In this document: positions 1,177-63,321 of the stretch, in pieces
Layout of the letters: every line of letters begins with the position of its first letter
How positions within the stretch are numbered: the first letter of the stretch is position 1
Source: an uncultured Clostridia bacterium
GTDB lineage: Bacteria > Bacillota > Clostridia > Oscillospirales > Ruminococcaceae
NCBI GenBank assembly: GCA_947627235.1
Contig: CANQVG010000002.1
Span: forward strand, 1 to 64,000
Direction of reading: 5' to 3'
Length of the DNA: 64,000 nucleotides
Translations under genes and position numbers: made by a program
Notes under the pieces: model-generated
Told to the model about the DNA's origin: nothing
What the model saw: the letters and a program-made list of their open reading frames with translations, nothing else
Databases searched by the model: none

Positions 1177-1205
1177 GGCGGGTTTTATGCTGAATAAAAT
1201 CCGCC
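1177..1205. repeat. Near-perfect 12-bp stem hairpin in long intergenic region
   Basis: GGCGGGTTTTAT-gctga-ATAAAATCCGCC; second hairpin CCGACGC-tga-GCGTCGG at 1284-1300. Confidence 0.6.
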
Positions 1206-1440
1206 TTGCCGATATTTGCGGACATAAAACCCGCACGAAGCAGGGTGGGTAAAGACGCCCCAAAAGTTTCTCGCTCCCTTCGTCCGACGCTGAGCGTCGG
1301 GAGGTCTGCAGTCCGCTTTCGGAGGACGAATCCCTTAATTTATGTGTTGGATTTAAAAAAACCGCAAATTGTCGCACAAGGCAGAAAAATGACTCATTTG
1401 TTACGCGCTTATTCTGTACGTTTTGAGAAAAAATATTCGT

Positions 1441-38124: not shown

Positions 38125-38306
38125 TATGATTCAGCGGAGTTGCCGCCGGATTCGGCGGCAGAGAGCAGGGGAAGCGCGGTGAAAACCCGCCGCAACAGTC
38201 ATTACGGTAAAAGTCCGATAGCCTGCCCGCCGGATACGCCGTTTTCTCGGGCAGAGGAGAATTTAAGCGGCGTCTTTTTGCCATGCCCGAGAATCGGGCA
38301 TTTTTT
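38125..38306 (+). promoter_or_regulatory. Cobalamin riboswitch with terminator expression platform
   Basis: GGGGAAGCGCGGTGAAAACCCGCCGCAACAG ... AAGTCCGATAGCCTGCC core; terminator TGCCCGA-gaa-TCGGGCA-TTTTTT at 38284-38306. Confidence 0.88.
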
Positions 38307-50456: not shown

Positions 50457-52181
50457 TCATTCTACGTCTTGCAGGGCGTCGTAGCCCTCTTCGCCGGTTC
50501 TCACCTTTACGACGTTCTCAACGTCGTATACGAATATCTTGCCGTCTCCGATGTGGCCGGTGTACAGCACCTTTTTGGCGGTCTCGATTACCGTTCTGAC
50601 GGGTATCTTTGAGACTACTATGTCGACCTGAACCTTAGGCAGCAGGTTTGTCTCTACGGGAACGCCGCGGTAGTATTCCGGTTTGCCTTTCTGGGCGCCG
50701 AAGCCCATAACGTGCGAGACGGTCATACCGGTGATGCCGAGTTTGGACATAGCGGTTTTGAGAGCGTCGAATTTCGCTTCCTTGCAGATGATTTCAACCT
50801 TTGTAAACTTTGGAGAATCGCCCGCAAAGGTGGGCATCTTTCTGACTGGAACAGCCTCCGCCTCGGGGACGTCTCCGCTGACGACAGACGGGGCTTCGTA
50901 GTCGCCGTATGAGGTAAACTTATCAACTGCGGGCATAAAGTCGGGGTAAGCCGAGGGAAGACCATGTTCGGGAATATCGAGACCCATAATTTCCTCGTCG
51001 GCGGTGACTCTTATTCCGTGGAACTTCTTGATGAACGCGAAGAAAATCACCATCATTACCGCCGCATATGAAGCTACGCTTACAAATCCGAGGAGCTGAA
51101 GCCCAAGCTGTTTGAATTCTCCGGTGTAGAAGAGACCGCGCAGACCGGCAGGGGCGTCGGGGTTGGAAAGAAGTCCTACGGCTATCGTTCCCCAGATGCC
51201 GTTTGCCATATGGACGCCTACCGCACCGACGGGGTCGTCGATGTGGAGTTTGAGGTCGAGCGTTTCAACCACGACAACAACGAGTATGCCCGAAACAAGA
51301 CCGACTACAGAAGCTCCTATGGCGTCCATAGAATCGCAGCCGGCGGTTATGCCTACAAGTCCCGCGAGGGAGGCGTTAAGGCACATCGAAACGTCCGGTT
51401 TGCCGTTTTTTATCCAAGTGAAAATCATAGTAGTGCAGGTCGCGACGGAGGGGGCTACGGTAGTTGTGAGGAAGATTGAGGCGAGTTCGCTCACGCTTGT
51501 CGCGGCGGCGCCGTTAAAGCCGTACCAGCCGAGCCAGAGAATGAATACGCCGAGTGCGCCGAGGGTTATTGAGTGACCGGGAATGGCGTTTACCTTGACA
51601 ACCTTGCCGTCCTTGTCGCGGACGTATTTGCCGATTCTCGGACCGAGGAATATCGCGCCGACGAGGGCAGCGATGCCGCCGACCATATGAATTGCGCAGG
51701 AGCCTGCGTAGTCGTGGAAGCCGAGCTGAGAGAGCCAGCCGCCGCCCCATATCCAGTGTGCCTCAATGGGGTAGACTACGAGAGAAATTATCGCGCTGTA
51801 TATGCAGTATGCCGAGAACTTTGTTCTCTCCGCCATAGCTCCCGAGACTATAGTCGCGGTAGTGGCGCAGAAAACGAGGTTGAATACGAATGTCGAAGCG
51901 CCGGTGAAGCCATCGGCGGGGGAGGCGATGAACTCCTTGAAGTTGGTAAACAGGTCCATATTCGGAAGACCTATAAGCCCGAAGAGAGTATCTTCACCCA
52001 TCATAAGAGTGTAGCCGAGGAGCGAAAAGACCACGGTGCCGATACAGAAGTCCATAAGGTTTTTCATTATTATGTTGCCGGCGTTTTTGGCTCTTGTGAA
52101 GCCGGTTTCGACCATTGCGAAGCCCGCCTGCATCCAGAAAACAAGTGCGGCGCCTATGAGGTACCAGAATTCTACTGTCAT
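50457..52181 (-). CDS. amt: Ammonium transporter fused to C-terminal PII (GlnB-like) domain
   Basis: Amt core FWMQAGFAMVETGFTRAKNAGNIIMKNLMDF plus PII-like FTKVEIICKEAKFDALKTAMSKLGITGMTVSHVMGFGAQKG...GDGKIFVYDVENVVKVRTGEEG. Confidence 0.93.
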   Translation of the reverse strand: MTVEFWYLIGAALVFWMQAGFAMVETGFTRAKNAGNIIMKNLMDFCIGTVVFSLLGYTLMMGEDTLFGLIGLPNMDLFTNFKEFIASPADGFTGASTFVFNLVFCATTATIVSGAMAERTKFSAYCIYSAIISLVVYPIEAHWIWGGGWLSQLGFHDYAGSCAIHMVGGIAALVGAIFLGPRIGKYVRDKDGKVVKVNAIPGHSITLGALGVFILWLGWYGFNGAAATSVSELASIFLTTTVAPSVATCTTMIFTWIKNGKPDVSMCLNASLAGLVGITAGCDSMDAIGASVVGLVSGILVVVVVETLDLKLHIDDPVGAVGVHMANGIWGTIAVGLLSNPDAPAGLRGLFYTGEFKQLGLQLLGFVSVASYAAVMMVIFFAFIKKFHGIRVTADEEIMGLDIPEHGLPSAYPDFMPAVDKFTSYGDYEAPSVVSGDVPEAEAVPVRKMPTFAGDSPKFTKVEIICKEAKFDALKTAMSKLGITGMTVSHVMGFGAQKGKPEYYRGVPVETNLLPKVQVDIVVSKIPVRTVIETAKKVLYTGHIGDGKIFVYDVENVVKVRTGEEGYDALQDVE

Positions 52182-52224
52182 AAATTTCACCTTTCTTGAA
52201 ATAAGAAGTGTATATCTATAACCA

Positions 52225-52340
52225 GCTCCAGAGCCTGACCCCACGGTCTGCCGCTTGCCCGCAAAGGACGCTTAGTAATTAAGATATTCAGTTTTTAGGC
52301 AGACGTCGGCAACATTTTCCGACGCCTGCCGTCGGTTTTT
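52225..52340 (+). ncRNA. Candidate + strand small RNA ending in hairpin plus T5 between glnN and amt (both on minus strand)
   Basis: GTCTGCC (52246) : GGCAGAC (52298); GGCAGACGTCGG : CCGACGCCTGCC; CCGACG-cctgc-CGTCGG-TTTTT. Confidence 0.3.
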
Positions 52341-52348
52341 ATGTGGGG

Positions 52349-54439
52349 TTATCTTACCCCGAACAGAAGCTCGCCGTATGTCGGATATTTCCAGTATTTC
52401 TCCGATGTCATGGTTTCCGCTTCGTCGGCGGGGGCGCGCAGGGCGTCCATTCTCGGAAGAATCTCGTCGCGTATGAAGAAGGAAGCCTTTTCCACGTCCT
52501 CAATGGTCTTATATTCCGAAATCTTAGCTTCGAGGTCGTCGGTTGCGGCGTCTATCTTTTCGAGGAGCGCCGAAAGCTTTTCGATTATCTTCTTCTCGTA
52601 GTTGTAGGGTACGCCTATGCCCATCTTCTTGTATGCCGCTTCCGAGAGGTCGGCTATGTATTCGTCGATAGAGGGCATAATCATCTTTCTCGACATCTCT
52701 GCCATAGTTTTTGCCTCGATGTTTACGGTCTTGACATAGTTTTCAAGCATTATCTCGCAGCGCGACTTAAGCTCCGCTTCCGAGTATACTTTATGTGCGG
52801 TGAGCATATCCACGTTCTTTTTGTCAAGCAGGTGAGGCATAGCGTCGGGAGTGGTGCGAAGGTTCATAAGACCTCTCACTTTTGTAGCTTCCTCTATCCA
52901 GCTTTCGTCGTAGCCGTTGCCGTTGAAGATGATTCTCTTGTGTTCTCTTATGGTACGGCGAATCATATCGTGGAGTGCCGAGTTGAAATCCTCAGCCTTT
53001 TCAAGCTCGTCGGCGAACTGCTTCAGGCTCTCCGCGACGGCGGAGTTGAGCATAATGTTCGCGCAGGCGATAGAGTTGGAGGAGCCGAGCATACGGAACT
53101 CGAACTTGTTGCCGGTAAAGGCGAAAGGCGAGGTGCGGTTGCGGTCGGTGTTATCGCGCTGGAAGCGAGGCAAAACGTGTACGCCGAGCTTCATAGTTGT
53201 TTTTTCGGAGCCGCCGTAGGGTGTGTCGCTCTCAATGGCGTCGAGAACGGCCTGTAGCTCGTCGCCGAGGAACATCGAGACAACTGCCGGAGGCGCTTCG
53301 TTCGCACCGAGACGGTGGTCGTTGCCCGCGGTGGCAACTGCGAGTCTCAACAGATCCTGATAATCGTCTACCGCCTTGATGACCGCCACAAGGAACAGCA
53401 GGAACTGTGCGTTTTCGTAGGGGGTCTCGCCGGGAGCGAGGAGGTTTACGCCGGTGTCGGTCGAAATCGACCAGTTATTGTGCTTGCCGCTTCCGTTCAC
53501 TCCGGCAAACGGCTTTTCGTGGAGCAGGCATACAAGACCGTGTTTTGCCGCGACCTTCTGCATAATTTCCATAGTGAGCTGGTTGTGGTCGGTGGCGATG
53601 TTGGTGGTCGAGTAGATGGGAGCAAGCTCGTGCTGAGCCGGCGCGACTTCGTTGTGCTCGGTCTTAGCAAGGATTCCGAGCTTCCAAAGCTCGTCGTTTA
53701 GCTCTGCCATATAGGCCGCGACTCTCGGCTTGATTACGCCGAAGTAGTGGTCGTCAAGCTCCTGACCCTTAGGCGGCATCGCGCCGAAAAGCGTTCTGCC
53801 GGTGTATATGAGGTCTGGACGGCGGTCATACAGCTCCTTGTCAACAAGGAAATACTCCTGCTCCGGACCTACGGAGGTCTTCACGCATTTTACGTCGTCA
53901 TTGCCGAAGAGCCTGAGAATTCTGAGCGCCTGCTTGTTGAGTGCCTCCATCGAGCGCAGAAGCGGAGTCTTCTTGTCGAGAGCCTCGCCGCCGTATGAGC
54001 AGAAAGCTGTCGGGATGCAGAGCGTTTTGCCCTTGATGAACGCATAGGAAGTGGGGTCCCAAGCGGTGTAGCCTCTTGCCTCAAAGGTGGCTCTCAGCCC
54101 TCCAGACGGAAAGCTTGAGGCGTCCGGCTCGCCTTTGATCAGCTCTTTGCCGGAAAATTCCATTATCACCCTGCCGTCGGGCGAAGGGGAGATAAAGCTG
54201 TCGTGTTTTTCGGCTGTGATGCCGGTAAGCGGCTGGAACCAGTGGGTGTAGTGAGTGGCGCCTTTTGAGACCGCCCAGTCCTTCATAGCCTCCGCGACGG
54301 CGTTGGCTACCGAAATGTCGAGCCGTGCGCCCTCATCAATAGTCTTTTTCAGAGACTTGTAGACCGAGGCGGAAAGCGTCGCTTTCATAACTCTGTCGTC
54401 AAATACCATGCTGCCGAAGTAATCCGTAACGTTTGCCAT
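52349..54439 (-). CDS. glnN: Glutamine synthetase type III
   Basis: 696 aa; [38 protein letters not shown]. Confidence 0.96.
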
Positions 54440-54474: not shown

Positions 54475-54529
54475 AAAAAAGAAAGACGCCGTCGGGAAAC
54501 GTATCCCGAAGACGTCTTTGCCTTCAACG
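54475..54529 (-). promoter_or_regulatory. Candidate ANTAR-type antitermination leader of glnN
   Basis: Hairpin GAAGGC-AAAGAC-GTCTTC (54508-54525), GGGA-TACGTT-TCCC (54494-54507), and competing terminator AAAGACG...CGTCTTT-C-TTTTTT. Confidence 0.55.
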
Positions 54530-54535
54530 TTTGCC

Positions 54536-54564
54536 ATTCTACACCCTTTTTGCCCATTTGTCAA
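54536..54564 (-). promoter_or_regulatory. glnN promoter
   Basis: Minus strand TTGACA, 17-nt spacer, TAGAAT. Confidence 0.75.
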
Positions 54565-54679
54565 TACCAAAACTTCATTTTTTTATAATTATTTTTGAAT
54601 TTGCAGCGAATTGTTAAAATTTTTGCAGGACTACGGTGTATGTTGATTCATTTTTGTGCAAAATTTTCTCTGAATCCGA

Positions 54680-54708
54680 TTGACATTTTTATTATTGTAT
54701 GTTAGAAT
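54680..54708 (+). promoter_or_regulatory. Promoter of the gltB/glnA operon
   Basis: TTGACA, 17-nt spacer, TAGAAT. Confidence 0.75.
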
Positions 54709-54727
54709 ACGTAAAGTGACAATTCAA

Positions 54728-54792
54728 AGTGAGCAACGGCGTTCACTCGTTAGGGGCATCTGTGTCCTTTTGCGGGTGGCGTTTATTTTTTT
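54728..54792 (+). promoter_or_regulatory. Candidate ANTAR-type dual-hairpin leader of the split GOGAT operon
   Basis: P1 AGTGAGC-AACGGC-GTTCACT; P2 AGGGGC-ATCTGT-GTCCTT; CACTCG:CGGGTG alternative stem followed by T-rich run. Confidence 0.55.
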
Positions 54793-55923
54793 ATGAAAGG
54801 ATATGATGGTATGCGGGATTGTCCCAACGACAATTTAAAAGAGGGCGCGGTGAGAATACCCTCCGGCTGCGCCATTTCCGCCGCGATATCCCGCGACGGC
54901 AGAAAGTTCACCGGAGAGGGAATTATCAAAAGTATGATACCTATGCATGACCGTTCCAACGGTCTCGGAGGAGGTTTTGCCGCCTACGGTATCTATCCCG
55001 ACTACAAGGATTATTATGCGCTCCACATTTTTTACGACGACAACGAAAGCCGTTTTGACTGCGAAAAATATCTTGCGGAGAGATTTGAAATAGTCCGCAG
55101 CGAGATAATCCCGACCCGCAAGATGCCCGAGATAACCGACTGTCCGCTTATATGGCGCTATTTTGCTGTTCCCGAGCACAACCGGCTCAACGCCTCGCAG
55201 CTCACACCGGACGAATACGTCGCCCGTGCGGTGACGGGGATAAACGCCGGACTTAAGGGCGCATATGTCTTTTCGAGCGGCAAGAATATGGGCGCGTTCA
55301 AGGCGGTAGGTTTTCCGGAGGACGTCGGCAGGTTCTATAAGCTCGACGAATACGAGGCTTATCTCTGGACGGCTCACGGCAGATATCCTACAAACACCCC
55401 CGGATGGTGGGGCGGCGCCCACCCGTTTGCGCTGCTCAATTATTCGATAGTACATAACGGCGAGATTTCTTCATACGACGCCAACCGCAGGTTTATAGAG
55501 ATGTTCGGCTACCGCTGCACTCTTCAGACCGATACCGAGGTCATCACGTATATTGCCGACTATCTGCTGAGAAAGCAGGGTCTTACCCTTGAGGAGACGG
55601 CCTCTGTTATCGCAGCGCCGTTCTGGTCGACGATAGCGAAAAAGCCTCCCGAGGAGGCGGAAAAGCTCAAATTCCTGCGAACCGTCTATCCGAACCTGCT
55701 CATCACCGGACCTTTCTCGATAATACTCGGCTTCGAGGGAGGAATGATGGCTCTTAACGACCGTTTAAAGCTGCGCTCTATGGTCGTCGGTGAAAAAGAC
55801 GATATGGTTTACGCAGCGAGCGAGGAGGCTGCCATCAGGGTGATGGAGCCTGAGCTTTCAAAGCTTTACGCCCCTGCGGGCGGCGAGCCGGTAATTGTTA
55901 AGGTAAAGGAGGGCGCGTTTTAA
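54793..55923 (+). CDS. Glutamate synthase glutaminase (class II GATase) domain protein
   Basis: 376 aa; [27 protein letters not shown]-like region; [14 protein letters not shown]. Confidence 0.9.
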   Translation: [376 protein letters not shown]

Positions 55924-57428
55924 TGGGAATTGAATATATTTATCCCGAGTTTGAGGTCGTCAGAAACGATTCAAGGTGCATAAGGTGCCGCGTCTGCGAG
56001 CGCCAGTGTGCAAACTGCGTCCACAGCTACGATCCCGACGGCGACGTTATGCTCAGCGACGAGACAAAGTGTGTCGACTGTCAGCGCTGCGTGGCGCTCT
56101 GTCCGACAAGAGCGCTCAAAATTGTCAAGAGCGACTGCGCTCTGCGTCCCAATGCCAACTGGGGTCAGGACACGGTAAAGGAAATATACAAGCAGGCGTC
56201 AAGCGGCGGCGTTCTGCTGTCTTCTATGGGCAATCCCAACCCGCTCCCCGTATACTGGGACAGAATCCTGATAAATGCCTCGCAGGTCACGAACCCGTCG
56301 ATTGACCCGCTCAGAGAGCCTATGGAGACCAAAGTTTTCCTCGGAAAAAAGCCGTCGGAGATAAGAAGGGACGAAAACGGAAGGCTCATAACTAAGCTTG
56401 ACCCTCAGCTCGAGCTTTCGATGCCGGTTATGTTTTCGGCGATGAGTTACGGTTCGATAAGCTATAACGCACACGAGAGTCTTGCACGCGCCGCAACTCA
56501 GCTCGGGCTTTTCTACAACACCGGCGAGGGCGGTCTTCACGAGGACTTCTATAAATACGGACCGAATACGATAGTTCAGGTAGCGTCCGGACGATTCGGC
56601 GTTCACGAGGGATATCTCAAGGCGGGAGCCGCGATTGAGATAAAAATGGGGCAGGGTGCGAAGCCGGGTATAGGCGGGCATCTTCCGGGTGCAAAGATAG
56701 TCGGCGATGTCTCCCGCACAAGAATGATTCCCGAGGGTTCGGACGCTATCTCTCCCGCGCCTCATCACGATATTTACTCGATAGAGGACCTCAGACAGCT
56801 CGTCTACTCTCTCAAGGAGGCGACGGAATACAAAAAGCCGATAATCGTCAAGGTTGCGGCGGTGCATAACATCGCGGCAATAGCGTCGGGAATCGCGCGC
56901 TCAGGCGCCGATATAATCGCAATTGACGGTTTCAGAGGAGGAACCGGAGCGGCTCCTACGAGAATCAGAGATAACGTCGGAATACCGATAGAGCTTGCTC
57001 TCGCTTCGGTGGACAAGAGGCTCCGCGACGAGGGCATACGTGGAAACGTAAGTCTTGTAGTCGGCGGCTCGATACGTTCGGCAGCGGACGTTGTAAAGGC
57101 TGTAGCGCTCGGAGCCGACGCCTGTTACATAGCGACTGCTGCGCTTCTGGCTCTCGGATGTCATCTTTGCCGCACATGTCAGACCGGCAAGTGCAACTGG
57201 GGAATAGCTACGCAGCGTCCGGAGCTTGTGAAGCGTCTGAATCCCGACATCGGCAGCGAGCGGCTTGTCAACCTTATGACCGCATGGCGTCACGAGATAA
57301 TGGAGCTTATGGGCGGAATGGGCATAAATTCCATAGAGGCGCTCAGGGGAAACAGGCTTATGCTCAGAGGCGTGAATATGACGGAAAAGGAGTTGGAGAT
57401 ACTCGGTATCTCCCACGCGGGTGAATGA
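55923..57428 (+). CDS. Glutamate synthase central (FMN) domain with N-terminal 4Fe-4S motifs
   Basis: 501 aa; CIRCRVCERQCANCV, CVDCQRCVALCP; GAKPGIGGHLPG; DGFRGGTGAAP. Confidence 0.95.
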   Translation: MGIEYIYPEFEVVRNDSRCIRCRVCERQCANCVHSYDPDGDVMLSDETKCVDCQRCVALCPTRALKIVKSDCALRPNANWGQDTVKEIYKQASSGGVLLSSMGNPNPLPVYWDRILINASQVTNPSIDPLREPMETKVFLGKKPSEIRRDENGRLITKLDPQLELSMPVMFSAMSYGSISYNAHESLARAATQLGLFYNTGEGGLHEDFYKYGPNTIVQVASGRFGVHEGYLKAGAAIEIKMGQGAKPGIGGHLPGAKIVGDVSRTRMIPEGSDAISPAPHHDIYSIEDLRQLVYSLKEATEYKKPIIVKVAAVHNIAAIASGIARSGADIIAIDGFRGGTGAAPTRIRDNVGIPIELALASVDKRLRDEGIRGNVSLVVGGSIRSAADVVKAVALGADACYIATAALLALGCHLCRTCQTGKCNWGIATQRPELVKRLNPDIGSERLVNLMTAWRHEIMELMGGMGINSIEALRGNRLMLRGVNMTEKELEILGISHAGE

Positions 57429-57429
57429 T

Positions 57430-57858
57430 ATGAAAAGGGTTTATGTAAACGAAAAATGGTGCCTTGGGTGCCGTCTCTGCGAATATAACTGCGCCTATGC
57501 CAATTCCGGCGAAAGCAGTATGATAAAGGCGCTGCGCAAAAAGGCGATTCGTCCGAACATTACCGTCGAGGAGGACGGAGATATTAACTTTGCCGTATCA
57601 TGCCGACACTGCCGTGACCCCATATGCGTAAAAAGCTGCATTTCAGGCGCGCTTTCAATTAAGGACGGCGCGGTAGTGGTTGACCACGACAAATGCGTAG
57701 GCTGCCTGACATGCGTTCTTGTCTGCCCCTACGGCTGCATACGCGAGGGTGAGGGCGGCGCCGTGCAGAAATGCGAGCTTTGCCTCAACAATTCCTTCGG
57801 AGAACCTGCCTGCGTGAAGGGCTGCCCCAACAGGGCGATAGTTTTTGAGGAGAGGTGA
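57430..57858 (+). CDS. 4Fe-4S dicluster ferredoxin-like protein
   Basis: CLGCRLCEYNC, CRHCRDPICVKSC, CVGCLTCVLVCPYGC, CELCLNNSFGEPACVKGCP. Confidence 0.92.
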   Translation: MKRVYVNEKWCLGCRLCEYNCAYANSGESSMIKALRKKAIRPNITVEEDGDINFAVSCRHCRDPICVKSCISGALSIKDGAVVVDHDKCVGCLTCVLVCPYGCIREGEGGAVQKCELCLNNSFGEPACVKGCPNRAIVFEER

Positions 57859-59096
57859 GCGGTTTGAAACAATATCTGATTATAGGCAACGGTGCGGCGG
57901 CAGTCGGCGCGATAGAGGGTATACGCTCGGTCGACAAAAACGGCGAAATAACCGTTATTTCCCGCGAAAATCATCATGTCTATGCCCGTCCGCTGATTTC
58001 CTACTATCTTGAGGGGAAGACCGACCTTAAGCACATACTTTACCGCCCCTCTGACTTCTATGAGAAAAACTCGGTAAACGTGCTTTACGGCGAGGAGGCG
58101 GTTTCGGTAGATCCCGACGGGAAAACCGTCGCGCTGAAGAGCGGCAAGAAGCTCGGGTACGACTCGCTCTGTGTTGCGGCAGGGTCGGCTCCGTTCGTAC
58201 CGCCTACGGAGGGGCTCGGCAGCGTTCCGTCGGTTCACAGCTTTATGACGCTTGACGACGCCGAGACGCTGAAATCAAGTCTCACGCCCGATTCAAGGGT
58301 TCTGATAGTGGGCGCGGGGCTTATAGGTCTTAAGTGTGCGGAGGGTATACTCGGGCTCTGCAAAGAGATAACCGTCTGCGACCTCGCGCCGAGGGTGCTT
58401 TCGAGCATACTCGATTCCGACTGCGCTGCGATAATGCAGACTCACCTTGAAAAAATGGGAATAAAATTCCTGCTCGGCGACACAGTTGAAAAATTCGACG
58501 GAAGCACTGCGCATATGAAAAGCGGCTGTAAGGTTGGTTTCGACGTTTTGGTCATGGCAGTCGGTGTGAGGGCGAATATATCGCTTGTAAAGGAGATCGG
58601 CGGTGAGTGCGGCAGGGGAATTTCGGTAAACGAAAAAATGCAGACCACACTTTCAGATATTTACGCCGCGGGCGACTGCACCGAATCCTTTGACATCACC
58701 TCCGGCACCCGCAGGGTTATGGCAATAATGCCGCTTGCTTATATGCAGGGACACTGTGCCGGAGTGAATATGGCAGGAGGCACGGAGAGCATAGAAAACG
58801 CCCTGCCTATGAATTCTATAGGCTTTGCGGGACTTCATTGCTTGACGGCGGGAAGCTATGACGGCGAATGTTACGAGGAACGCTTTGAAGACGGAATCAA
58901 GCGGCTTTACGTCAAGGACAATCTGCTCAACGGCTTCATTCTCATCGGCAAAATCGACCGTGCGGGAATATATACAAGCCTCATAAGGAACAGAACTCCG
59001 CTCGACACGGTGGACTTTGAGCTTTTAAAGAAGTTTCCCGCGCTCGCGCCATTCGGCAGGACATATCGGAGCGAAAAACTCGGAGGTGAAGTATGA
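57855..59096 (+). CDS. FAD/NAD(P)-dependent oxidoreductase (pyridine nucleotide-disulfide type)
   Basis: IGNGAAAVGAIEGIRSVD; VLIVGAGLIGLKCAEGI; IYAAGDCTE. Confidence 0.92.
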   Translation: MSGLKQYLIIGNGAAAVGAIEGIRSVDKNGEITVISRENHHVYARPLISYYLEGKTDLKHILYRPSDFYEKNSVNVLYGEEAVSVDPDGKTVALKSGKKLGYDSLCVAAGSAPFVPPTEGLGSVPSVHSFMTLDDAETLKSSLTPDSRVLIVGAGLIGLKCAEGILGLCKEITVCDLAPRVLSSILDSDCAAIMQTHLEKMGIKFLLGDTVEKFDGSTAHMKSGCKVGFDVLVMAVGVRANISLVKEIGGECGRGISVNEKMQTTLSDIYAAGDCTESFDITSGTRRVMAIMPLAYMQGHCAGVNMAGGTESIENALPMNSIGFAGLHCLTAGSYDGECYEERFEDGIKRLYVKDNLLNGFILIGKIDRAGIYTSLIRNRTPLDTVDFELLKKFPALAPFGRTYRSEKLGGEV

Positions 59097-59830
59097 TGGC
59101 TGAAAATAAAATCAGGGTTATCGACGCAGAAAATCTTGAATTTTCGGAATTAAATGCTATAATAAGAGAATCAGGCGACTGCGAGATAAAAAACTGTCTC
59201 GGTCAGAGGTTCATAGCCGCCGGTATGAGCTATCGCAATATCAGAATCAGCGGCACTCCGGGCAACGCTCTCGGCGCATATCTCAACGGCGGAACCGTTG
59301 AGGTCTTCGGCAACGCGCAGGACGCCGTCGGCGACACTATGAACGACGGAAGAATCATCATTCACGGCTCTATAGGAGACGCGGCGGGATATGCTATGCG
59401 CGGAGGCGAGATTTTTGTCAGGACCGACGCCGGCTACCGTGCGGGAATACATATGAAAGCCTATAAAGACAAGATTCCCGTAATGGTGATAGGCGGTAGG
59501 ACCGGAAGCTTTCTCGGGGAGTATCAGGCGGGCGGGCTTATTATAGTTCTCGGCCTGAATCGCGGCGACAAGCCCATTGTCGGCAACTTTCCCTGCACCG
59601 GTATGCACGGTGGAAAGCTGTTTTTAAGGTCAAACTGCGAGGGTATTACTTTCCCGAAGCAGGTTACTGCGCGTCCGGCGGAACCTCAGGATGTAAACGA
59701 AATCGAGAAATATGTAAGACGTTACTGTGAGATTTACGGAGAGGATTTTGATAAGCTCATCTCGTCGGACTACACCGTAGTCACGCCCGACAGCAAGAAC
59801 CCCTACAAGCAGATGTATGTTCAGAATTAA
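59093..59830 (+). CDS. Glutamate synthase GXGXG (alpha C-terminal) domain protein
   Basis: 245 aa; GXGXG-type beta-helix repeats with GDAAGYAMRGGEIFV. Confidence 0.9.
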   Translation: MMAENKIRVIDAENLEFSELNAIIRESGDCEIKNCLGQRFIAAGMSYRNIRISGTPGNALGAYLNGGTVEVFGNAQDAVGDTMNDGRIIIHGSIGDAAGYAMRGGEIFVRTDAGYRAGIHMKAYKDKIPVMVIGGRTGSFLGEYQAGGLIIVLGLNRGDKPIVGNFPCTGMHGGKLFLRSNCEGITFPKQVTARPAEPQDVNEIEKYVRRYCEIYGEDFDKLISSDYTVVTPDSKNPYKQMYVQN

Positions 59831-59846
59831 AGGAAGGAAGAACGCT

Positions 59847-61070
59847 ATGATTTACACGCCCGAGGAGACCATTCAATATGTCGCGGAGGAGGACGTAAAG
59901 TTTATACGTCTCGCTTTTACAGATGTTTTCGGCACGCAGAAAAACATTTCGGTTATGCCGGGAGAGCTTGAGCGCGCCTTTAAATACGGCATCGCCATAG
60001 ACGCTTCCGCGATAGCCGGTTTCGGAGGCGTAGTTCGTTCCGACCTCTTTTTACATCCCGACCCCTCTACGCTCGCCATACTGCCTTGGAGACCCGAACA
60101 CGGCAGGGTTGTCAGAATGTTCTGCACGATAACCTATCCCGATGGCAGGGAGTTTGCGCCCGACACAAGAAGTCTTCTCAAAAAGGCGGTAGAGCTTGCC
60201 GAGGCGGAGGGCTACAGCTTTTATATCGGCTCCGAGACGGAGTTTTACCTCTTTAACCGCGACGAGAACGGCAATCCTACTTCTGTTCCATACGATCAGG
60301 CAGGGTATATGGACATCGCTCCCGCTGACAAGGGCGAAAACGTGAGGCGCGAAATATGTCTCGACCTCGAGCGTATGGGCATTATCCCCGAAAGCTCTCA
60401 CCACGCCGAGGGACCCGGTCAGAATGAGATTGATTTCAGACGTTCCGACCCTCTTACCGCCGCCGACAACGCGGTTACTTTCCGCTCGGTGGTCAGTACC
60501 ATCGCGGCGAGGAACGGTCTTTACGCCGACTTTTCGCCGAAGCCCATCAAGAACAAGCCGGGCAACGGCTTCCATATCAAGATATCCGTCGCCAATAACG
60601 CGAGAGGCGAGCTTTTGCCGCGCGTCATCGCCGGAATCCTCAGGCGCATACCCGATATTACCCTTTTCCTCAATACCTCCGAGGAGTCGTATCTGCGGCT
60701 CGGCGCGCATAAAGCGCCGAAATACATTACATGGTCGAGCGAAAACCGCTCGCAGCTCATAAGAATCCCCGCGCCGACAGGCGAATCCGACGATCTCAGA
60801 GCCGCCGAGCTAAGGTCGCCCGACCCGCTTGCCAATCCGTATCTTGCTTTCGCGCTGCTTATTCTCGCGGGGCTTGAGGGACTCAAGAACGATGCCGTTC
60901 TGCCGCTTCCCGCAGATATCGACCTTTATACCGCCGACGAGAAGACGCTCAGCGGTTTCAAAGCGCTTCCCCACGACCTTGAGGAAGCCGTCCGTGCTGC
61001 GCGTTCGAGCGATTTTATCGGGAAATATCTTCCCGCCCAGATAACCGACTGCTACTGTTCAAAGCGCTGA
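59847..61070 (+). CDS. glnA: Glutamine synthetase (GlnA type I-like)
   Basis: VAEEDVKFIRLAFTDVFGTQKNISV; SSHHAEGPGQNEIDF; NKPGNGFHIKIS. Confidence 0.93.
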   Translation: MIYTPEETIQYVAEEDVKFIRLAFTDVFGTQKNISVMPGELERAFKYGIAIDASAIAGFGGVVRSDLFLHPDPSTLAILPWRPEHGRVVRMFCTITYPDGREFAPDTRSLLKKAVELAEAEGYSFYIGSETEFYLFNRDENGNPTSVPYDQAGYMDIAPADKGENVRREICLDLERMGIIPESSHHAEGPGQNEIDFRRSDPLTAADNAVTFRSVVSTIAARNGLYADFSPKPIKNKPGNGFHIKISVANNARGELLPRVIAGILRRIPDITLFLNTSEESYLRLGAHKAPKYITWSSENRSQLIRIPAPTGESDDLRAAELRSPDPLANPYLAFALLILAGLEGLKNDAVLPLPADIDLYTADEKTLSGFKALPHDLEEAVRAARSSDFIGKYLPAQITDCYCSKR

Positions 61071-61072
61071 GC

Positions 61073-61696
61073 GTGTCCGCAAGCGTATTCCTTATCGAGG
61101 AGGGTAGAGCCTTGAGTTCAAAAGAACAGGTTTACAGTGTTCTTATAGTTTCAAATTCCGAAAAGTTCAACACTTCGCTTCAAAACGCTCTTCCCGCCGG
61201 GAAGTATCTGCCGGTGAGGGTAGTGTCGGGTGTGGGCGCGGCAAGGCGTGAGCTTTTGGAGCGCAGCTACGATATCGTTATAATAAACACACCGCTTCCC
61301 GACGACTACGGAACCCGTCTCGCGATAGACCTTTCAAGTGAAATAGGCATCGGGGTAATGCTTTTTGTGAAAAGCGAAAACTTCGACGATGTATACAGTC
61401 AGGTGACCGAATACGGTGTCCTTACGGTTTCAAAGCCGGCGAGCGGGCAGATAGTTCTGCAATCAATGCTGCTTTTGTGCGCCACCCGTGAAAGGCTCCG
61501 CAGAATGGAGCGCAAGGCGGCCTCGCTGGAGGAAAAAATGGAGGAGATAAGGCTTGTCAACCGTGCCAAATGGGCGCTCATCAACGAATTTGGAATGAAT
61601 GAGGCTGAGGCGCACAAATATATAGAGCGCAAGGCGATGAACGGCTGCATCACTAAAATGAAAGCAGCCGAGGAGATAATCGAGAAGTATAAATAA
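61073..61696 (+). CDS. ANTAR domain response regulator-like protein with degenerate receiver
   Basis: C-terminal VNRAKWALINEFGMNEAEAHKYIERKAMNGCITKMKAAEEII; receiver DIVIINTPLPDDYG has Asn at the usual Asp position. Confidence 0.88.
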   Translation: MSASVFLIEEGRALSSKEQVYSVLIVSNSEKFNTSLQNALPAGKYLPVRVVSGVGAARRELLERSYDIVIINTPLPDDYGTRLAIDLSSEIGIGVMLFVKSENFDDVYSQVTEYGVLTVSKPASGQIVLQSMLLLCATRERLRRMERKAASLEEKMEEIRLVNRAKWALINEFGMNEAEAHKYIERKAMNGCITKMKAAEEIIEKYK

Positions 61697-61707
61697 AGGG
61701 AGGATAA

Positions 61708-63321
<1,614 letters not shown>

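Follow-up and report, generated by a model that had tools for sequence, protein, structure and literature searches.

We analysed a stretch of 64,000 nucleotides (below, the window) from an uncultured Clostridia bacterium of the Ruminococcaceae (contig CANQVG010000002.1, assembly GCA_947627235.1). In this window two nitrogen-assimilation operons lie back to back, the glnN operon on the minus strand and a split glutamate synthase (GOGAT) operon on the plus strand, with an intergenic region between them. Our analysis suggests, with a probability of about three in four, that the leaders of both operons attenuate transcription under the control of the ANTAR protein that one of these operons encodes, and that each of them uses one hexaloop. 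An earlier note on this DNA had proposed ANTAR-type antitermination on both operons. This proposal is supported here by a conserved first hairpin (P1), by the overlap of P1 with a terminator, and by a sole ANTAR gene that sits in a target operon.

Overlapping hairpins in the two leaders

Both promoters have the form TTGACA-17-TAGAAT and were read directly at the sites where they had been described as a head-to-head pair. The GOGAT promoter has its −35 box at 54680-54685 and its −10 box at 54703-54708 (plus strand). The glnN promoter has TTGACA at 54559-54564 and, after a spacer of 17 nt, TAGAAT at 54536-54541 (minus strand). In both leaders a hexaloop hairpin starts about 11-20 nt past the −10 box, and a terminator comes next. 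The GOGAT P1, AGTGAGC-[AACGGC]-GTTCACT, spans 54728-54747 (plus strand), and the glnN P1, GAAGGC-[AAAGAC]-GTCTTC, spans 54508-54525 (minus strand). Folding and covariance model matches mark both as predicted ANTAR-binding hexaloops, and both loops have A at position 1 and G at position 4 (A1/G4), as the earlier note had read them. With the 3′ part of the leader absent, P1 folds at −7.8 kcal/mol in GOGAT and at −5.5 kcal/mol in glnN.

In both leaders, the loop and 3′ arm of P1 form the 5′ arm of an overlapping intrinsic terminator. The glnN terminator (54475-54519, minus strand) was found by folding: AAAGACG (54519-54513) pairs with CGTCTTT (54488-54482), and a U-run extends to 54475. The full-length glnN leader adopts this terminator fold at −26.8 kcal/mol (z = −5.65), which none of 200 shuffles equalled, and the mutual exclusion of terminator and P1 claimed for this leader was thereby upheld. 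The GOGAT terminator (54735-54792, plus strand) was read directly and from the competing fold. AACG and CACTCG (54735-54738 and 54744-54749) pair with CGGGTG and CGTT (54773-54778 and 54780-54783), nine of the ten pairs are made with the P1 loop and 3′ arm, and a U-rich tail runs to 54792. The full-length GOGAT leader takes the competing fold at −22.3 kcal/mol (z = −2.9; 0/200 shuffles as good). Earlier, CACTCG:CGGGTG had been set against P1 in this leader; the competition is real, but the pairing was incomplete, as the P1 loop is also used through AACG:CGTT.

We scanned both strands of the 64 kb for hexaloops with A1/G4 and a stem of at least 5 bp that are overlapped by a U-tailed terminator. 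The two leaders and one intragenic site passed, and shuffled sequence gives 0.4 per strand. That the leaders are not a chance arrangement follows from their conservation in relatives, which is described below. No leader or riboswitch family of Rfam reached its gathering score in the intergenic region, and at E ≤ 10 there were chance-level matches only. The 12-mer ATGGCAAACGTT occurs twice on the minus strand, once at the glnN start codon (54439-54428) and once at the −10 box and transcription start of the glnN leader (54537-54526); the repeat is also present in the loci L032 and L033.

The proposed mechanism would run as follows. RNA polymerase would leave the consensus promoter and make P1 within a few nucleotides, essentially at the 5′ end of the mRNA. 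An active ANTAR protein would then bind the P1 hexaloop through A1 and G4 and hold its loop and 3′ arm. The terminator needs those bases and could not form, so that GOGAT-GlnA-ANTAR(-PyrG) or GlnN would be transcribed. With the ANTAR protein inactive, the more stable terminator would form and transcription would stop ahead of the gene. The signal read in this way would presumably be nitrogen status. Because the ANTAR gene is located within its own target operon, it is predicted to be autoregulated.

Conservation in relatives and reach of the regulon

The leaders of the genus and 60 GOGAT upstream regions across the family together gave 84 leaders with P1 and an overlapping terminator. A1 and G4 of P1 were the selection criterion of this set, and A2 was not required. 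The P1 loop is A-A-N-G-R-(C/T/A) in all 84 leaders (for example AAAGGC, AAAGAC, AATGGC and AACGGC); that is, A2 is invariant though unselected, and position 5 is a purine throughout. When we scanned upstream of the family GOGAT operons without the A1/G4 filter, 35 of the 44 terminator-overlapping hexaloops had A1/G4. The earlier note had made its proposal depend on hexaloops kept in relatives, and for P1 such conservation was found.

The stem and the terminator are conserved in their pairing as well. In the P1 stem, 97.8% of cells are paired compared with 85.1% after shuffling, and the covariation score is 0.52 against 0.29 (0/500 shuffles). The 3′ arms of the terminators fit the loop and 3′ arm of their own leader better than permuted arms do, also when each leader type is taken separately (0/2000). 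A promoter score of at least 9 (of 12 plus a spacing bonus), which 12% of shuffles reach, lies ahead of 81 of the 84 leaders, and P1 starts 8-11 nt beyond the −10 box in most of them.

We searched for further targets with a covariance model of P1 that has 22 positions. The GOGAT P1 is the best match in the window genome (26.7 bits), and the glnN P1 is the second best (23.2 bits). Weaker matches on C19, C6, C16 and C26 of the same genome are not convincing leaders, and a second glnN paralogue (G000:C12) is without such a leader. The suggestion that amt and asnB might be extra targets found no support, as the model gave no match for them as separate targets in this genome.

The ANTAR gene (61073-61696, plus strand; PF03861) had been placed in the GOGAT operon by the earlier note, and it is the only one in this genome (1.65 Mb, 97.6% complete). 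Within the genus, all 29 ANTAR-bearing genomes have model matches at E ≤ 0.002. The two ANTAR-less genomes, G005 (97% complete) and G028 (76%), have no match below 0.2. The target genes are missing from G005 as well, so this joint loss of motif and ANTAR gene is supportive and not independent. Across the family the contingency of motif and ANTAR gene (80/14/65/40) is significant but noisy (Fisher p = 2 × 10−4).

A second set of 80 named contigs was fetched by the ANTAR protein alone, independently of the leader search. These contigs contain 131 model sites, 120 of them with an overlapping terminator. The sites lie upstream of glnN (56), the first GOGAT gene (42), glnA-ANTAR (8) and pyrG (4), and the translations that were read add gdhA, purA, purC, asnB and a branched-chain aminotransferase to the targets. 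In some relatives the attenuator is immediately 5′ of pyrG. Many glnN and gdhA leaders of this set hold a tandem pair of complete attenuators, in which either hexaloop has a terminator of its own. Such tandem copies are about 60-130 nt apart in L197, L200, L207, L214, L217, L227, L240, L246 and others, and there are none in the window genome. The GOGAT leaders L146, L149, L138 and L139 (G208, G122, G220 and G141) are hexaloop-free despite an ANTAR gene in the genome.

One hexaloop or two, and the factor that reads it

The earlier note had described a second hairpin, P2, in both leaders. In GOGAT it was given as the hexaloop AGGGGC-[ATCTGT]-GTCCTT; this region (54752-54769, plus strand) forms a stem of 7 bp capped by a UCUG tetraloop, is the apical part of the terminator, and is variable in relatives. 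In glnN, TCGGGA-[TACGTT]-TCCCGA (54492-54509, minus strand) is the upper part of the terminator hairpin and stays within the terminator fold, and its loop is not conserved. Neither window leader has a second hairpin with A1/G4. Among the leaders of relatives, the P2 loop is between 3 and 11 nt long and none of its bases is conserved; 3 of the 84 leaders have a second A1/G4 hexaloop, where shuffles give 3.2-3.7. Because the P2 loops vary freely and A1/G4 is found in them at the shuffled rate, we assign one ANTAR hexaloop to each attenuator. P2 as a second ANTAR hairpin was rejected, and it is better described as the variable tip of the terminator. An upstream recruitment hairpin was rejected too, as P1 begins at about the transcription start and in most leaders leaves no room 5′ of it. 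The leaders look like a single-hexaloop variant of the dual-hexaloop ANTAR motif, with no hexaloop other than the first, which itself overlaps the terminator.

It might still be supposed that these are classical dual-hexaloop leaders with a degenerate second loop, where recognition of P1 rests on A1/G4 and that of P2 on a looser code, both hairpins being required. We think this improbable, although most leaders do form a further hairpin after P1, and the glnN P2 loop TACGTT in the window retains G4, the base that is stacked on Tyr164 in EutV (PMC8934654). When the ANTAR-seeded set is included, a second A1/G4 hexaloop is found in 11 of 172 attenuators compared with 4.1 expected. A few of the 172 may thus be dual-hexaloop leaders, the second loop not being a conserved feature. 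Beside the free variation of the P2 loops, the spacing between P1 and P2 is variable, and P2 forms within the terminator helix without disturbing it, so holding P2 could not block termination.

That excess in the larger set is one of several points that weigh against control through a single ANTAR hexaloop. Both hexaloops are needed in eutP (PMC3369931, PMC8934654), and therefore a single loop may be too little for antitermination to be stable. Run as a positive control on 8 eut loci of the family, with strict and relaxed settings, the scan for second loops gave no dual motif, so that its sensitivity for true dual motifs is unproven. A model match at E ≤ 0.003 is missing in 65 of the 145 ANTAR-bearing genomes of the family, and 14 family genomes without a detected ANTAR gene carry one. 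In six genomes of the family the GOGAT operon is linked to an ANTAR gene but is without the leader. To some extent these family-scale exceptions are noise or broken contigs, the motif being short. The case for ANTAR control is also sequence-based throughout.

The same six genomes would suit a switch that is real but read by some other factor, such as an RNA-binding protein, a metabolite or the kinetics of RNA polymerase, with the ANTAR gene acting elsewhere. The circumstantial nature of the evidence that links protein and RNA speaks for this as well. However, the hexaloop carries the published A1/G4 code of ANTAR targets, the single ANTAR gene of the genome sits in a target operon, motif and ANTAR gene are jointly absent from the two genus genomes mentioned above, and Rfam has no matching family of riboswitches or leaders, so we consider this explanation quite unlikely. 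It is very unlikely that the leaders are unregulated, with early terminators that act constitutively beside a fortuitous 5′ hairpin: the terminators are strong, but the loop is conserved, both alternative pairings covary, and the leaders, tandem copies too, are retained before the same nitrogen genes in many genera.

The ANTAR protein is probably not activated by phosphorylation. Its ANTAR domain scores 48 bits (cut-off 27.3), whereas Response_reg scores 23.9 bits, under the Pfam cut-off of 30.2; the receiver domain is degenerate. The position of the phospho-acceptor Asp is Asn in the window protein, and in relatives it is Asn in 70 of 71 and Ser in the remaining one. The window protein is therefore not a two-component regulator of the EutV type, which has a receiver with this Asp. 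The ANTAR protein beside the eut genes in the family member L256 retains Asp. By sequence, AmiR (PDB 1qo0) and Rv1626 (PDB 1s8n) are among the closest solved relatives. Because the receiver is without the phosphorylated Asp, activation is probably AmiR-like: a partner protein or a ligand is a likelier activator than a histidine kinase. For the partner, the adjacent glutamine synthetase is a candidate that we name by inference only. A more far-reaching reading is tentative, and as a whole we find it rather doubtful: nitrogen genes of clostridia would widely be controlled by attenuators whose single hexaloop, at the extreme 5′ end of the mRNA, is enough for antitermination, and a non-phosphorylatable ANTAR protein would be switched directly by glutamine status, for instance via the adjacent feedback-inhibited glutamine synthetase.

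Operon layout and comparison with known systems

Five GOGAT subunits on the plus strand were confirmed by Pfam. The first gene encodes a class-II glutamine amidotransferase subunit (split GltB, GlxB-like; 54811-55923, PF00310). Its ORF opens at 54793 with an ATG that abuts the U-run and has no ribosome site; the in-frame start at 54811, preceded by AAAGGA, is likelier. It is followed by a glutamate synthase domain subunit (55923-57428, PF01645), a 4Fe-4S ferredoxin-type subunit (57421-57858, PF13247), an NAD(P)-linked FAD oxidoreductase subunit (57855-59096, PF07992) and a GXGXG subunit with the GltB C-terminal domain (59093-59830, PF01493). Then come GlnA, a glutamine synthetase with Gln-synt_N and Gln-synt_C domains (59817-61070, PF00120 and PF03951), the ANTAR gene, and pyrG for a glutamine-dependent CTP synthase (61711-63321, read directly and by genus adjacency), all on the same strand. 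The ANTAR gene had been taken as the end of the operon, which is probably wrong: the gap to pyrG (61696-61711) is 15 nt and terminator-free, and pyrG is next to the ANTAR gene in 27 of 30 genus loci. Thus pyrG is probably on the same transcript as GOGAT-GlnA-ANTAR.

On the minus strand, Pfam identified GlnN, a type III glutamine synthetase (52349-54439, PF12437 and PF18318), an asparagine synthase, and an ammonium transporter. The transporter gene lies at 50457-52244 (minus strand), and its ORF continues into a C-terminally fused P-II domain. Both amt and asnB lie downstream of glnN in the same orientation and may share its transcript. Elsewhere in the window, Rfam finds a 6S RNA (1194-1390, minus strand; RF00013, 56 bits) and an AdoCbl-II cobalamin riboswitch (38153-38232, plus strand; RF01689, 50.7 bits).

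The leaders point to a way in which ammonium assimilation may be controlled in many gut clostridia. Search models with two hairpins may miss them, and no Rfam family covers them. As they are many and easily built, the sufficiency of one hexaloop is directly testable. In the open literature that we searched, no earlier description of this regulon was found. NitR of Clostridium saccharobutylicum, an ANTAR-type protein encoded beside the glutamine synthetase gene glnA and proposed as an antiterminator, may be the closest studied counterpart of the system as a whole. This precedent may lower the novelty of the regulator but not, as far as we found, that of the single-loop architecture.

Ramesh et al. 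(2012, PMC3369931) have described the ANTAR target RNA as two hairpins with A1/G4 hexaloops, of which the second overlaps the terminator and the first only recruits. They also list putative targets before genes for glutamate synthase, glutamine synthetase, ammonium transporters and P-II proteins (PMC3369931). The leaders of the window resemble the dual-hexaloop RNAs of EutV (eut, Enterococcus faecalis), NasR (nasF) and AmiR (amiE) in the A1/G4 hexaloop, in a 5′-leader hairpin that cannot coexist with the intrinsic terminator, in the nitrogen genes that follow, and in the presence of an ANTAR gene in the genome. However, one hairpin at the 5′ end of the transcript, itself overlapping the terminator, would here be both recruiter and antiterminator.

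The regulators can be compared in the same way. AmiR likewise is without the receiver phosphorylation residues (PMC8934654), but it is held by AmiC, and a gene for an AmiC-like partner is not evident here. The receiver of Rv1626 is phosphorylatable, whereas that of the window protein is not.

Walshe et al. (2022, PMC8934654) have shown in a structure of EutV with RNA that the ANTAR dimer grips one hexaloop, and in their revised definition one hexaloop is the minimal site. They predicted that targets with a single hexaloop are possible, and posed their existence and role as a question (PMC8934654). In comparison with that minimal site, the hexaloops of the window lie in transcription attenuators. 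The ANTAR leaders described here are thus candidate natural single-hexaloop attenuators, which would answer the question left by Walshe et al. (PMC8934654).
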